From the NCBI GenBank assembly GCA_035295165.1, contig DATGJN010000064.1:1-56628 (forward strand): DNA of 56,628 nucleotides, given 5' to 3'. The position numbers and the translations under genes were made by a program. Position 1 is the stretch's first letter. Each line of letters starts with the position of its first letter. The DNA is from a bacterium (lineage in GTDB: Bacteria; Sysuimicrobiota; Sysuimicrobiia; Sysuimicrobiales; Segetimicrobiaceae). The notes beneath the pieces are model-generated. The model did no database searches. It was not told where the DNA came from and saw only the letters and a list, made by a program, of their open reading frames with translations. Positions 3,994 through 10,076 of this stretch are shown in pieces.

Positions 3994-4121
3994 CGGGGCG
4001 GATCGGCGGGGCGCTACGGAATCGGGTCTGGGCCCGATCACGTGCCGGCGCGTCGGATGGTACCGTGAGGATGGTGCCCGTTGGGACGGCCGAGTCTAGA
4101 TGACGGCGAGGTGGAGTCACG

Positions 4122-4805
4122 ATGCCGGTGCTCACGGATCAGGTCCGCGCTCAGGTGTCCAAGGTGTTCTCCGAACGGCTCGACGCCCCCGTGACGCTCC
4201 AGTTGTTTACACAGCGGGCTTCGCCGCTCGGTGCGCCTGCGCTCCCGTGTGAGACGTGTCAGGATACCGAGGCGCTCCTGCGTGAGGTCGCGGCGCTGTC
4301 AGCGCACATTACGCTCGCCGTTCGAGACTTCGTCGCGGACGAGAGTGTCGCCCTGCGCCTCGGGGTCGATCGAATCCCCGCCATGGTGTTCCAGGGTCGC
4401 AACAAGGGCGTGATGCGGTACTTCGGGGTGCCGGCCGGATACGAGTTCAGCGTGCTTGTCGAAGGCCTGATCGACGCCGCGCGTGGCGAAACCGCCCTGA
4501 GCGCGGCCACCCGTGAACGGGTGGCCGCCCTCGCGTCGCCGATCCAGATCCGCGTGCTCGTGACCCCGACCTGACCGTATTGTCCCCGTGCGGCCAGGTT
4601 GGCCCACGCACTCGCGGTCGAAAGCCCGCACGTGACGGCGGATGTGATCGAGGTCGCGGAGTTTCCCGAGCTCGCACAGCGGTACCACGTCCAGGGTGTT
4701 CCGAAGACCATCATCAACGAGCAGGTCTCGGTCGATGGCGCCGTCCCGGAGTCGCGCCTGCTGGCGCTGGTCCTCGACGCGGTCGGACGCGGACATGCGC
4801 CCTAG
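4122..4805 (+). CDS. Protein disulfide oxidoreductase-like (two thioredoxin folds), probable selenoprotein with UPYC active site
   Basis: Read through the in-frame TGA at 4572-4574, this is a 227-residue protein with two thioredoxin-fold domains, like the PDO/glutaredoxin-like family. Domain 1 has a CETC motif (C43, C46) and a RIPAMVF cis-Pro loop. Domain 2 would read TPT-Sec151-Pro-Tyr-Cys154-Pro, and GVPKTII supplies the second cis-Pro loop. The family's second site is normally CPYC, so the TGA sits exactly where the first Cys belongs. The downstream part alone has no SD or good start, lacks half of its active site and would begin in mid-domain. A SECIS-like hairpin follows the TGA (4587-4608). 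SD GAGGTGGAG precedes ATG 4122. The neighbours are DUF302, a universal stress protein and a P-type ATPase. The alternative, a point mutation or sequencing error in a Cys codon, is not excluded. No sel genes lie in the window. Confidence 0.82.
4587..4608 (+). promoter_or_regulatory. Candidate bacterial SECIS element
   Basis: Beginning 12 nt after the TGA, CGTG (4587-4590) pairs with CACG (4605-4608). C4591 is a single bulge, GGCC (4592-4595) pairs with GGCC (4601-4604), and the loop is AGGTT (4596-4600). Bacterial SECIS elements are short hairpins just downstream of UGA with a 5'-side bulged base and a G-U in the apical loop; the E. coli fdhF loop is AGGUCU. The bulged base here is C rather than U, and the apical G-U lies a few bases farther from the UGA than in fdhF. 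All eight pairs are Watson-Crick. Confidence 0.7.
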
Positions 4806-4877
4806 CCCCCGGCGCCCCCGCGCGGCGGCGAGGAGCGGGCGTGTGCGGATGGCGGATGGGCTGAGGAGGGTGCGGGG

Positions 4878-5276
4878 ATGTTGACGACGTACGGATTTGG
4901 GACGCGGGTGTCGCTCCCCTACGATCAGGCGATCGAGCGCACGCGTGCGCTGCTCAAAGCGGAAGGGTTCGGCGTGCTCACGGAGATCGATGTTCAGAAG
5001 ACAATGAAGGAGAAGCTCGGCGTGGAGTTCCGTCGGTACGTCATTATCGGCGCGTGCAATCCGCCGCTCGCGCACCGGGCGCTCGAGGCCGAGTTGGAGA
5101 TCGGTCTGCTGCTCCCCTGCAACGTCATCGTGTACGAGGCCGATGGCGGGAGCGTGGTGTCCGTCATGGATCCCAACGCGGCACTCGGTATGGTAGGCAA
5201 CGACGCCGTCCGCCCGATCGCGCAGGAGGCGCGGGCTCGCCTGGAGCGGGTCGTCTCGCGACTGCGGGAGGCCTGA
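4878..5276 (+). CDS. DUF302 domain protein
   Basis: A 132-residue protein with SD GGAGGG just upstream of ATG 4878. It matches the DUF302 pattern: an N-terminal YGFGTRVSLPYDQAIERT segment, the GFGVLTEIDV strand, KEKLGVEFRRYVIIGACNPP and the LLLPCNVIVYE core, and it ends after a short helix. DUF302 proteins are small alpha/beta proteins of unknown biochemical role, often found near redox and sulfur/thioredoxin genes. C56 (GACNPP) and C75 (LLPCNV) are the typical family cysteines, and its position directly after the disulfide oxidoreductase supports a thiol-related role by inference. Confidence 0.85.
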   Translation: MLTTYGFGTRVSLPYDQAIERTRALLKAEGFGVLTEIDVQKTMKEKLGVEFRRYVIIGACNPPLAHRALEAELEIGLLLPCNVIVYEADGGSVVSVMDPNAALGMVGNDAVRPIAQEARARLERVVSRLREA

Positions 5277-5321
5277 GCCCCGCGTCGGGCGAGGTGAAAC
5301 CAGGGGGGTAACGCGAGGGCC

Positions 5322-5759
5322 ATGTATCGCCGTATTCTGATTCCCACCGACGGGAGCGCGTGTAGCCAACTCGCGCTCGAGCACGCACTTGGGCTCGCCA
5401 AGGAACAGCAGGCCGAGGTCAGGATCGTCCACGTGCTCGACCTGCAGCCGCTGTACACCTCCGAGGCCCTGGACGTCGAACCGATCGTCGACGCGTGGCG
5501 GCGCTCCGCGGAGGCGGTGGTCACCGAGGCCGCCGCGGCCGCCGCACGGTCCGGCGTCCACGCGGAACACGCCGTGCTTGAGGCGCTGGGCCACCGCGTG
5601 GCGGACGTCATCGTCGACGAGAGCAAGCGCTGGCAGGCCGACCTGATCGTGATCGGAACGCACGGCCGGCGCGGACTTCACCATGTCCTGCTTGGGAGCG
5701 TGGCGGAGGGGGTCGTGCGGACCACGACCGTGCCCGTGCTGCTGATCCGTGGCAGGTGA
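5322..5759 (+). CDS. Universal stress protein (UspA family)
   Basis: A 145-residue single-domain Usp. It opens with MYRRILIPTDGSACS, the usual first strand and Asp. The C-terminal part carries the ATP-binding signature G-x2-G-x9-G-(S/T), seen as GTHGRRGLHHVLLGSVA, followed by TTVPVLLI. ATP-binding Usp proteins act in the cytoplasm in stress and growth-arrest responses. It follows the DUF302 gene by 45 bp and overlaps the start of the P-type ATPase by 11 bp, so the three are probably co-transcribed with the oxidoreductase. Confidence 0.93.
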   Translation: MYRRILIPTDGSACSQLALEHALGLAKEQQAEVRIVHVLDLQPLYTSEALDVEPIVDAWRRSAEAVVTEAAAAAARSGVHAEHAVLEALGHRVADVIVDESKRWQADLIVIGTHGRRGLHHVLLGSVAEGVVRTTTVPVLLIRGR

Positions 5760-8121
5760 CGCGCGGGACGGTACGCCCGCGGTCGATGCCGCGGCGTCGA
5801 CGCGCGTGCCCAGCGGCCTGACCACCCAGGAGGCCGAGGAGCGCCTCCGCCGGTTCGGCCCGAACGCCATCCGTGAAGAAACGCCGCCGGCTTGGCGGGC
5901 GCTGCTCGGGAAGTTTTGGGCGCCGGTGCCCTGGATGCTCGAAGGCACGATCGTGCTCGAACTGCTGCTTCGGAAGCCGTTCGAAGCGGTGGTGTTCGCG
6001 CTCCTGCTGGCGTTCAACGGGATCCTCGGCTTTGCCCAGGAGCACCGTGCCGAGCGCGCGCTCCGGCTCCTGCGGGAGCGGCTCGCGGTCCAGGCCCGGG
6101 TGCGCCGCGACGGGCGGTGGGACCGGTTGCCCGCAGCCGTGCTGGTTCCCGGCGACGTCGTGCACGTGCGCGCCGGCGACTTCGTGCCGGCGGACCTGCG
6201 CTTGGTCGACGGCCATCTCGGCATCGACCAGTCGGCGCTCACGGGCGAGGCCCTCCCGATCGAGGCGGAGGCCGGCGCCACCGCGTTCGTCGGCTCGGTG
6301 GTGAAGGACGGCGAGGCGACCGGGGAAGTCACGGCGACGGGTGCCGGGACGGCGTACGGCAAGACCGCGGAGCTCGTCCGCACGGCTGTCGCGCCGGGGC
6401 ATCTGGCAACGCTGGTCGCGGGCATCGTGCGCTACCTTGTCGTGTTCGATCTCCTGCTGGTCGCGGCCCTGATCGCCTACGCGGTGGCCGCGCGGCTACC
6501 CATGACCGATGTGCTTCCGTTCGGCGCCATCATTCTGATTGCCGCCATCCCGGTGGCGCTCCCAGCGACGTTTACGCTCGCGACGGTGCTCGGGGCGATG
6601 GAGCTCGCCGGTCGCGGCGTGCTGGTCGCACGGCTGTCGGCGATCGAAGAAGCCGCCGAGATGGACGTGCTCTGCGCGGACAAGACGGGGACGCTCACCC
6701 AGAACCGCTCCGCTATCGCCGCGCTTGCGCCGACCCCGCCGTACACGGAAGCCGAGCTCCTCGGGTGGGCTGCCCTTGCCTGCGACGAAGCGACGCAGGA
6801 CCCCATCGACCAGGCGATCCTCACCGCCGCCCGGGCGCGGCAGGTGCCGTTGCCGTTCACGGGGCGGGTGCGGTTTGTTCCGTTCGACCCCGCGACGAAA
6901 CGGTCCGGAGTGATCTTTCACGACGGGGACGTTGCTCGACAGGTGGTGAAAGGCGCGGTCCAGGTCGTCGTGCCGGAAGGCGCGCCGGACCGCGCCTGGG
7001 CGGCCGAACGCCGGGACGCGCTCGCGGCCGGCGGGGCCCGCGTGCTCGCGGTGGCGGCGGGCCGACCCGACGCCCTGGCGCTCGTCGGGCTCGTTGCGCT
7101 GCATGATCCTCCGCGCGACGACTCCAAGACGCTCGTGCGGCGTCTCCGTGATCTCGGGATCCGTGTTGTCATGGTCACGGGAGACGGGCTCGCCACCGCG
7201 GCGGCCGTCGCGGCGCAGGTCGGCATCGGGCCGCGCGCGGCTCCCGCGGGGATGCTCGACCAGGTGCAGGATCCTGAGGCGGCGCGCTACGACATCTTCG
7301 CCCGGGTGTTGCCCGAGGGCAAGTTCAACCTCGTCAGCGCGTTGCAGCGCGACGGCCATCGCGTCGGCATGACGGGCGACGGCGTCAACGACGCCCCTGC
7401 GTTGCGGCAGGCCGAGGTCGGCATCGCCGTCGCCACCGCCACTGACGTCGCCAAGGCCGCCGCCGGCCTCGTGCTGACACGCTCGGGCCTGGTGAACATC
7501 GTGACGGCGGTGGAGGTGAGCCGGCGGATCCACCAGCGCATGCTCACGTACACGCTCAACAAGATCGTGAAGACGTTCGAGTTGTCGCTCTTGCTGACGT
7601 TGGGCCTCATCGTCGGCGGCATCTTCGTCACGACGCCGCTGTTGATCGTTCTGCTACTGTTCGCGAACGACTTCGTGACCATGTCCGTCGCGACGGATCT
7701 GGCCCGGGCTGCGCCCGCGCCCGACCGCTGGGACGTGCGCGCGCTCGTTCTTGCCGCGCTCGGTGTGGCGGGCGTGCTGCTGGCGTTTTCGAGCGGCGTC
7801 GTGTGGGCCGGCTGGCGGGTGTGGCACCTGCCGCTCTCCACGTTGCAGACCGTGGTGTTTCTCTGGCTGGTGGTGGGGATGCAGGCGACCGTCTACCCCG
7901 TGCGGGAGCGAGGGCGGTGGTGGGGCTCCCGGCCGGGCCGCTGGCTTGTCGTGAGCACCGTCGGGGACCTGGCGGCCGTGAGCCTGCTGGCAACCCGGGG
8001 CTGGCTGATGGCGCCTGTCGGCCCCGGAGTCATCGGCGCGCTCCTCGTCGTGGGGGCCGTGTACATGGTGGTTGCCGATCTCGTGAAAGTGCCGGTGTTT
8101 CGAGCCTGCGGGCTGCGCTGA
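5749..8121 (+). CDS. P3A-type (plasma-membrane H+-ATPase-like) P-type ATPase
   Basis: A 790-residue P-type ATPase from GTG 5749. Visible in order are the actuator TGE loop (SALTGEALPIE), the fourth membrane helix with IPVALPA (typical of P3A proton pumps, in place of the CPC of metal pumps or PEGL of Ca/Na pumps), the phosphorylated Asp in CADKTGTLT (D311) and the hinge TGDGVNDAPAL. About ten membrane helices are present, with no N-terminal metal-binding domain. P3A enzymes export H+ at the expense of ATP. The start overlaps the Usp gene by 11 bp. Association with stress and redox genes suggests use in acid or energy stress, which is inference. Confidence 0.92.
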   Translation: MAGDARDGTPAVDAAASTRVPSGLTTQEAEERLRRFGPNAIREETPPAWRALLGKFWAPVPWMLEGTIVLELLLRKPFEAVVFALLLAFNGILGFAQEHRAERALRLLRERLAVQARVRRDGRWDRLPAAVLVPGDVVHVRAGDFVPADLRLVDGHLGIDQSALTGEALPIEAEAGATAFVGSVVKDGEATGEVTATGAGTAYGKTAELVRTAVAPGHLATLVAGIVRYLVVFDLLLVAALIAYAVAARLPMTDVLPFGAIILIAAIPVALPATFTLATVLGAMELAGRGVLVARLSAIEEAAEMDVLCADKTGTLTQNRSAIAALAPTPPYTEAELLGWAALACDEATQDPIDQAILTAARARQVPLPFTGRVRFVPFDPATKRSGVIFHDGDVARQVVKGAVQVVVPEGAPDRAWAAERRDALAAGGARVLAVAAGRPDALALVGLVALHDPPRDDSKTLVRRLRDLGIRVVMVTGDGLATAAAVAAQVGIGPRAAPAGMLDQVQDPEAARYDIFARVLPEGKFNLVSALQRDGHRVGMTGDGVNDAPALRQAEVGIAVATATDVAKAAAGLVLTRSGLVNIVTAVEVSRRIHQRMLTYTLNKIVKTFELSLLLTLGLIVGGIFVTTPLLIVLLLFANDFVTMSVATDLARAAPAPDRWDVRALVLAALGVAGVLLAFSSGVVWAGWRVWHLPLSTLQTVVFLWLVVGMQATVYPVRERGRWWGSRPGRWLVVSTVGDLAAVSLLATRGWLMAPVGPGVIGALLVVGAVYMVVADLVKVPVFRACGLR

Positions 8122-8265
8122 GGGCGCACGGGCCATCGGAGGCGTCCGCACGGCGGGTAGCGCGCCTTCATCCCCAGAGGAGTCCGACCGGGGCGAGTGG
8201 TAGTCATCCGCAACGACGTGCGCCCGTGCGGCGACGACGCGGCATCTGGGTGGAGGCACACCAGA

Positions 8266-8817
8266 ATGGTCTCGACCGACACGCACGAGCGGCGTCACAC
8301 TCGGAAATGTTTCTGGAGCCGGGCGTCCCAGGCGGCGTTCGTCGCGTTCTTGCTGCTGGGCACCGCGACCACCGTCCTCGGCGCCGGGACGGTCCCACCG
8401 GTCGGCTACGACGGGGCGACGCACACCGTGTCCTTGAGCCTTACCGCGGCACAGGCAGACGCATACAACTTCAACGGTTACGCCGGCGGTGCGCTGGTCG
8501 TGAAGGTGCCGACGGGAAGCACGGTGCAGGTGACGATGCGGAACGTCGCGGCGGACGTTTCGCACAGCGTGCTCGTGGCACCCTGGGACCAGCGCACCAA
8601 AGGGAGCGGGTTCACGCCGGCATTTCCCGGTGCGGCGCCCGCCGACTTCGAGACGGGGATCACGTCGCACGACCCTCCGCTGCACTTCACCTTTTCCGCC
8701 CGCAGCGCCGGGACATATGCCCTTCTCTGCGGCGTGCCGGGGCATGCCCTGATCGGCATGTGGGACGAACTCGACGTTGTGGACGGACTGAGCGCGCCGT
8801 CCGCGACGACCAAGTGA
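8266..8817 (+). CDS. Sulfocyanin-like type 1 blue-copper protein
   Basis: Taking ATG 8266 with GGAGG nine bases upstream, the product has 183 residues; an upstream GTG (8197) is possible but less well placed. A basic N-terminus precedes one hydrophobic segment (about 22-40), which can serve as signal or anchor. The cupredoxin copper ligands are clear: H100 (DVSHSVL), then C155-x4-H160-x4-M165 in LLCGVPGHALIGM. Low-complexity Gly/Ser loops such as NFNGYAGG resemble sulfocyanins. Such proteins carry single electrons on the outer face of the membrane. A sulfite-oxidase-family enzyme follows after 47 bp, so this is its likely electron acceptor. Confidence 0.85.
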   Translation: MVSTDTHERRHTRKCFWSRASQAAFVAFLLLGTATTVLGAGTVPPVGYDGATHTVSLSLTAAQADAYNFNGYAGGALVVKVPTGSTVQVTMRNVAADVSHSVLVAPWDQRTKGSGFTPAFPGAAPADFETGITSHDPPLHFTFSARSAGTYALLCGVPGHALIGMWDELDVVDGLSAPSATTK

Positions 8818-8864
8818 GGCGCGTGGGCACGCGCGACGCGGACATCGAAGAGGAGGGGGCTGAG

Positions 8865-10076
8865 ATGGACCGTGAACCTGCTGCTGGACCGGGTACAGAG
8901 TGGAACGGTGGACTGTCCCGCCGGGCGTTGCTCTATCGATCGGGGACGATCGCTGGGGTGGTCGCGTTTGCTGGAGCGTGGCCGTTGGTCCGCGACGCGT
9001 TGGCGCAGGAGCCAGCAATCCCCGGGGTCGCCGCGGGGATGAAAGTGATTAGCCGGTCACCGATCAACCTGGAAACGCCGATCCCGCCGCTGCGGACATG
9101 GATCACGCCCAACGACTGGTTCTTCGTCCGCTTGCACTTGCCAGGGTACGCGCAGCTCAACCGGGAGACGTGGCAGATGACAATAGACGGAGCAGTCGGA
9201 CAACCCCTCCGTCTCGCGTGGGCCGACATGCAGCGGTTTACACATGTCGAGCTCACCGCATGGGTCCAGTGCGCGGGCAACCGGCGCGGACACTTCCAGC
9301 CCAAGGCCGCGGGCGGGCAGTGGGATCGCGGGGCCGTCGGGAACGCCCGATGGTCCGGCGTACGCCTGCGTGACGTGCTGCTGTCGGCCAACCCCACGGT
9401 GAAAGCGCATCATGTGGCGTTTGAGGGGAGCGATCCCAACGGTGCCGCTCCACCGTACGTCCGCAGCATCCCGATCGAGAAGGCCCTCGACCCCAACACG
9501 TTGCTGGTCTTCGAGATGAATGGCCAGCCGTTGCCGACCCTCCACGGATTCCCGGTTCGCGCGCTCGTGCCGGGATGGGTCGGATCGGCCAACGTGAAGT
9601 GGATCCGAGCGATTCACCTGGTGGAGGAGGAGTGGAACGGACCGTATATGAAGGACCTCTACCGGATCAATCCGGTCCCCATGAACCCGACCGACAAAAC
9701 CTTCAGCTTCTCCCAGGACTTCGTTCCCACCACGGTGTTCCCGGTGAACTCATTCTTTACATCGCCCGTCACGGGCGACACGCTCCCAGCGGGCTCCGTG
9801 ACCCTTGCTGGGGTCGCCTACGCGGGGGAGACTGGAATCGCGAAGATCGAGGTCTCCGTGGACGGCGGGGCGTGGCGGCCGGCGCGGATCACGACGCCTG
9901 GGTCCGCGTACGCATGGTATCAGTGGGAGTTGGTGGAGACGCTTGCCCGCGGACGGCACGAGATCGCCGCACGCGCGACCGACTGGCGGGGCCGCACCCA
10001 GCCGCGTGAGGGATTGTGGAACCCTCAAGGGTACTTCTATAATGCCTGGGACGTGCTCGCGTTGACCGCCTCCTAG
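8865..10076 (+). CDS. Tat-exported sulfite oxidase/sulfite dehydrogenase family molybdoenzyme
   Basis: A 403-residue protein starting at ATG 8865 with SD AGGAGGGGG. A twin-arginine signal (S18-R19-R20-ALL, then a hydrophobic run ending near ALAQ at 45-48) indicates export of the folded cofactor enzyme. The Mo-ligating Cys is C136 in VQCAGNRRG; GSDPNGAAPPY and the NGQPLPTLHGFPVR pterin-binding loop follow. The C-terminal part (about 290-403) is the Mo-co oxidoreductase dimerisation domain with SVDGGAW and WRGRTQP. The family oxidises sulfite to sulfate (SorA, SoxC-like) or reduces methionine sulfoxide or other substrates; the adjacent blue-copper protein favours an oxidising direction. Confidence 0.9.
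   Translation: MDREPAAGPGTEWNGGLSRRALLYRSGTIAGVVAFAGAWPLVRDALAQEPAIPGVAAGMKVISRSPINLETPIPPLRTWITPNDWFFVRLHLPGYAQLNRETWQMTIDGAVGQPLRLAWADMQRFTHVELTAWVQCAGNRRGHFQPKAAGGQWDRGAVGNARWSGVRLRDVLLSANPTVKAHHVAFEGSDPNGAAPPYVRSIPIEKALDPNTLLVFEMNGQPLPTLHGFPVRALVPGWVGSANVKWIRAIHLVEEEWNGPYMKDLYRINPVPMNPTDKTFSFSQDFVPTTVFPVNSFFTSPVTGDTLPAGSVTLAGVAYAGETGIAKIEVSVDGGAWRPARITTPGSAYAWYQWELVETLARGRHEIAARATDWRGRTQPREGLWNPQGYFYNAWDVLALTAS

Follow-up and report, generated by a model that had tools for sequence, protein, structure and literature searches.

A predicted selenocysteine-containing protein disulfide oxidoreductase in a Sysuimicrobiota genome

Introduction

Does an in-frame TGA end a gene, or does it encode an amino acid? 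The question is raised by a locus in a genome of the family Segetimicrobiaceae (Sysuimicrobiota), which we analysed in a stretch of 56,628 nucleotides, referred to here as the window. A frame running from the ATG at 4122 to the TAG at 4803-4805 contains a single internal stop, a TGA that divides it into 150 and 76 codons. The original prediction, made from the sequence alone, was that this TGA replaces exactly the first Cys of the CPYC active site of a protein disulfide oxidoreductase (PDO), and that a gene caller would split the gene into a truncated 150-residue product and a 68-residue orphan. Both statements hold: homologue alignment places the TGA at that Cys, and beyond the 150 codons the next in-frame start is a TTG at 4599, which would give a 68-residue protein devoid of the UPYC site. 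As argued below, the frame is very probably one intact two-domain PDO gene whose UGA is decoded as selenocysteine (Sec). The features of the locus are collected in Table 1.

Table 1. Features of the predicted Sec-PDO locus and its neighbours, in window coordinates
Feature	Position	Strand	Basis or remarks
Predicted Sec-containing protein disulfide oxidoreductase, U151	4122..4805	+	227 residues; TIGR02187, E 2.5e-71; AlphaFold2 model
Shine-Dalgarno-like AGGTGGAG before ATG 4122	4109..4116	+	Read from the sequence
Domain 1 active site C43-E-T-C46	4248..4259	+	Aligns with CxxC of PDO homologues
Predicted Sec codon TGA (U151), opening U-P-Y-C154	4572..4574	+	Alignment with the Cys/Sec column
Putative bacterial SECIS hairpin	4587..4608	+	9 bp, one bulged C, 3-nt loop GGU
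cis-Pro loop G192-V193-P194, reading GVPKT	4695..4703	+	V193 and P194 columns invariant
DUF302 protein	4878..5276	+	PF03625, E 2.3e-27; stop is an ordinary TGA
Universal stress protein	5322..5759	+	PF00582, E 3.9e-35
Cation P-type ATPase	5749..8121	+	PF00122, E 7.8e-41

Family and fold of the read-through protein

The assignment to the PDO family is confirmed by the NCBIfam model TIGR02187, whose current short name is PDO_seleno_TRX. It matches residues 6-219 of the 227-residue read-through protein with 239.3 bits (E 2.5e-71), above the curated cut-off of 185 bits. When searched alone, the sequences before and after the TGA hit different portions of this profile: the upstream 150 residues match positions 2-139 (E 3.1e-36), and the downstream 76 residues positions 141-208 (E 2.3e-26). 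The AlphaFold2 model of the read-through protein has a mean pLDDT of 92.4, and its best structural matches are the PDOs of Aquifex aeolicus and Pyrococcus (2ayt, 2ywm, 1a8l; TM to the query 0.86-0.90), followed by the Aeropyrum PDO and the N-terminal domain of AhpF. Alignment and predicted fold agree with what is expected of TIGR02187 proteins: a pair of thioredoxin folds, each with its own active site, here C43/C46 and U151/C154. The CETC motif of domain 1 and the GVPKT cis-Pro loop after the TGA, both pointed out originally, can be read in the window. U151 takes the place of the first Cys in the family's C-terminal CPYC site, in a column that is invariantly Cys or Sec in alignments of 32 and 26 proteins.

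The Cys-type PDOs of Pyrococcus furiosus (1a8l) and A. aeolicus (2ayt/2ywm) share with the window protein the two thioredoxin folds, the CxxC of domain 1, and the CPYC-type site and cis-Pro of domain 2, but carry Cys at the attacking position, where the window protein would have Sec. The N-terminal domain of AhpF (5h29, 1zyn) has the same double-thioredoxin fold; however, in AhpF this domain is fused to a flavoprotein reductase, whereas the window protein stands alone with its 227 residues.

From its family, the protein is predicted to act as a dithiol/selenol oxidoreductase. By analogy with what is known of that family, the C-terminal U151-P-Y-C154 would be the main catalytic site, where the selenolate would attack the disulfide and Cys154 would resolve the resulting selenenylsulfide. 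The C43-E-T-C46 site may pass on electrons from a donor of the thioredoxin reductase type or, instead, act on substrates in parallel. These catalytic roles, together with the electron donor and the substrates, are extrapolated from the family.

Selenocysteine decoding machinery in the source genome

Decoding of the UGA would require SelB and tRNA-Sec, probably aided by a hairpin downstream of the codon. The original prediction proposed a search for selA, selB, selD and tRNA-Sec, and all of them are present in the source genome (4.79 Mb, 98% complete, 121 contigs). The tRNA-Sec scores 70.6 bits, above the Rfam cut-off, and ARAGORN assigns it a TCA anticodon. selB (329.6 bits) is likewise above its cut-off, and selA (536.7 bits) lies directly upstream of it on one contig; selD scores 383 bits. 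The set by which a bacterial selenoprotein is judged, selA, selB, selC and selD, was therefore found whole in this genome.

SelD (G000:C80:6495-7415, L083) is itself a selenoprotein, with an in-frame TGA in CAGUASK, which agrees with the UxxK motif catalogued for Sec-containing SelD (PMC13188914). A formate dehydrogenase (G000:C69:30079-31956, L168) also carries a TGA, in RTUHAPS, and a second gene of the formate dehydrogenase alpha type with an in-frame TGA was observed on the same contig (G000:C69, 3827-4618).

Conservation of the TGA and alternative explanations

Among the 43 genomes of the order, a number that includes the source genome, 21 have a PDO gene interrupted by just one in-frame TGA, and in the translated relatives U occupies the first Cys of a CPYC or CPHC site. 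The original prediction had asked whether Cys aligns with the TGA in all homologues. Relatives show either Cys or TGA at the U151 site. selB is above cut-off in 16 of the 21; among the remaining five, four are less than 90% complete, and the fifth contains selB-like fragments that score too low to pass. When named genomes were scanned, U forms also turned up in Chloroflexota, Acidobacteriota, Actinomycetota (Aquicultor), Bacillota and a Gemmatimonadetes MAG. That so many genomes have TGA in this one column excludes its occurrence by chance. The downstream half, whose conservation in relatives had been made a test of the call, has dN/dS values of approximately 0.14, 0.18 and 0.15 in three pairs, from a comparison of the window gene with two members of its family; the upstream half has higher values, 0.23-0.34. 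Judged by these ratios, the half downstream of the TGA is under purifying selection.

These data bear directly on the rival explanations. The gene could be a pseudogene, in which a recent nonsense mutation turned a Cys codon (TGC or TGT) into TGA and left a dead, truncated protein. Only one base does separate the TGA from a Cys codon, and two genomes of the same genus (G001 and G002) lack the gene. Nevertheless, TGA stands at the same site throughout the order and in other phyla, dN/dS in the downstream half is below 0.2, and the frame is otherwise unbroken, so that this explanation is in effect refuted and we consider it extremely improbable. G001 and G002 both have selB, so the Sec-PDO is dispensable, a point to be weighed against the selenoprotein reading. 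That a Cys-type gene was misread during sequencing or misassembled would fit the fragmentation of the source genome into 121 contigs, but is very unlikely when the TGA recurs in independent assemblies of relatives and when the window gene has the loop Arg codon and the hairpin of the Sec type described below. Conservation of the TGA and low downstream dN/dS together leave pseudogene, random stop and sequencing error unable to account for the gene.

Another possibility is that, by suppression or under a changed code, the UGA specifies Trp or some other amino acid. What speaks for this is the open frame and nothing else. Each of the first three genes downstream uses TGA as its ordinary stop, indicating that the code is not reassigned genome-wide; furthermore, the genome has the complete Sec machinery, and the residue aligned with the UGA is the catalytic Cys. 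Such a reading is hardly credible. Decoding as Sec, the original selenoprotein call, is thus borne out by the machinery, by the conserved TGA and by the Cys found at the site in relatives.

A putative SECIS hairpin

The loop of the candidate hairpin lies 22 nt after the TGA, and the minimum free energy (MFE) of the 42 nt folded is -13.9 kcal/mol. It agrees with all four published rules for bacterial SECIS elements (a loop of 3-9 nt with G within its first two positions, an upper stem of 4-16 bp, a spacing of 16-37 nt, and an MFE of at most -7.5 kcal/mol). Even so, its stability is near chance against synonymous resampling (z -1.1) and its fold varies with the length of RNA folded. A SECIS call by thermodynamics of this single sequence is therefore not decisive, and was set aside.

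The case for a SECIS element depends instead on how Sec genes differ from Cys genes. Of 35 Sec genes, 27 form all five inner pairs, compared with 5 of 85 Cys genes; AGG serves as the Arg codon at the loop in 25 of 31 Sec genes and in 12 of 56 Cys genes. Kinship among the Sec genes inflates these counts, even though several phyla are represented. The inner pair 21-33 is G-C, A-U or C-G among the Sec genes, meaning that both sides change and pairing is kept. In this comparison the codons after the UGA are bent towards a hairpin (GCC-AGG-YTG-GCC), here called a putative SECIS element.

Relation to catalogued selenoproteins

The original prediction suggested that a PDO combining CETC with UPYC may be new. 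This did not stand, as UxxC proteins of TIGR02187 are already listed as a selenoprotein family, and a domain 1 CxxC occurs together with UPYC or UPHC in many other genomes. A survey from 2006 reported two such selenoproteins, in Carboxydothermus hydrogenoformans and Symbiobacterium thermophilum (PMC1794560). A 2022 review carries the TIGR02187 AhpF-N-terminal-homolog UxxC entry too (PMC9312934), and the 2026 catalogue includes it as 'Homolog of AhpF N-terminal domain (Grx-like domain protein)', TIGR02187, UxxC, with ABB15282.1 as its representative, among the families predicted with high confidence (PMC13188914). Compared by description, ABB15282.1 and the window protein share the family model and the UxxC replacement, whereas the latter comes from another lineage and combines a domain 1 CETC with a domain 2 UPYC. 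The Sec-PDO is thus a member of a catalogued selenoprotein family and not of a new one.

A literature search for 'protein disulfide oxidoreductase' as a selenoprotein returned nothing relevant, since papers on selenoproteins treat this family under the name of AhpF. Neither the TIGR02187/AhpF-homolog family in the Sargasso Sea selenoproteome paper nor selenoproteins in a paper on the phylum CSP1-3 (Sysuimicrobiota) are mentioned. What the present gene adds is a lineage with a conserved and well-supported Sec-PDO, which an ordinary gene caller would split.

Sec-PDO lineages and apparent loss of the domain 1 cysteines

On a tree of 118 PDO proteins, Sec and Cys forms included, the Sec/Cys states require approximately 10 label changes, at least three of which are forced by well-supported branches. 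The window gene clusters with those of G009, G004 and the Gemmatimonadetes MAG L088 (support 100/98). A second Sec clade stands apart from it, with 17 proteins from across the order (98/86), most of which lack Cys in domain 1 altogether, leaving U151 and C154 as the remaining redox residues. Both Cys of the domain 1 CxxC are missing from L044, L049, L036, L050, L042, L043, L051, L045, L041, L054, L038, L058 and L057, of which L058 carries an additional Cys; one of the two is retained in L053 and L059. The second-clade members G006, G008 and G010, all from the window's own family, retain CxYC, and the loss therefore appears to have occurred inside this clade.

With about even confidence, we propose that the order has two Sec-PDO lineages: one with both sites, comprising the window gene, two genomes of its family and the Gemmatimonadetes MAG, and one that is order-wide and in which most members have lost every domain 1 Cys. 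Members of the latter may be single-site selenoenzymes with a non-catalytic first domain, whose Sec site would work alone with a different electron path. This variation in domain 1 lies outside the window and is, in our opinion, the part most worth following. G004 and G012 each hold a Cys-PDO and a Sec-PDO, natural material to test the contribution of Sec to these enzymes.

Genomic neighbourhood

The P-type ATPase gene is followed by an ORF with a sulfocyanin (SoxE) domain and a molybdopterin oxidoreductase ORF of the sulfite-oxidase type (7803-10076 and 8197-8814 in the window). A conserved operon was considered and rejected, as the DUF302, universal stress protein and P-type ATPase genes are not beside the Sec-PDO in relatives. 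The last two occur near a PDO in relatives only at the Cys-PDO locus of G004 (L070, G004:C70:10000-20000, at 4771-9060). The P-type ATPase encoded there is 65% identical to that of the window, and the Sec-PDO of G004 is located elsewhere in its genome.
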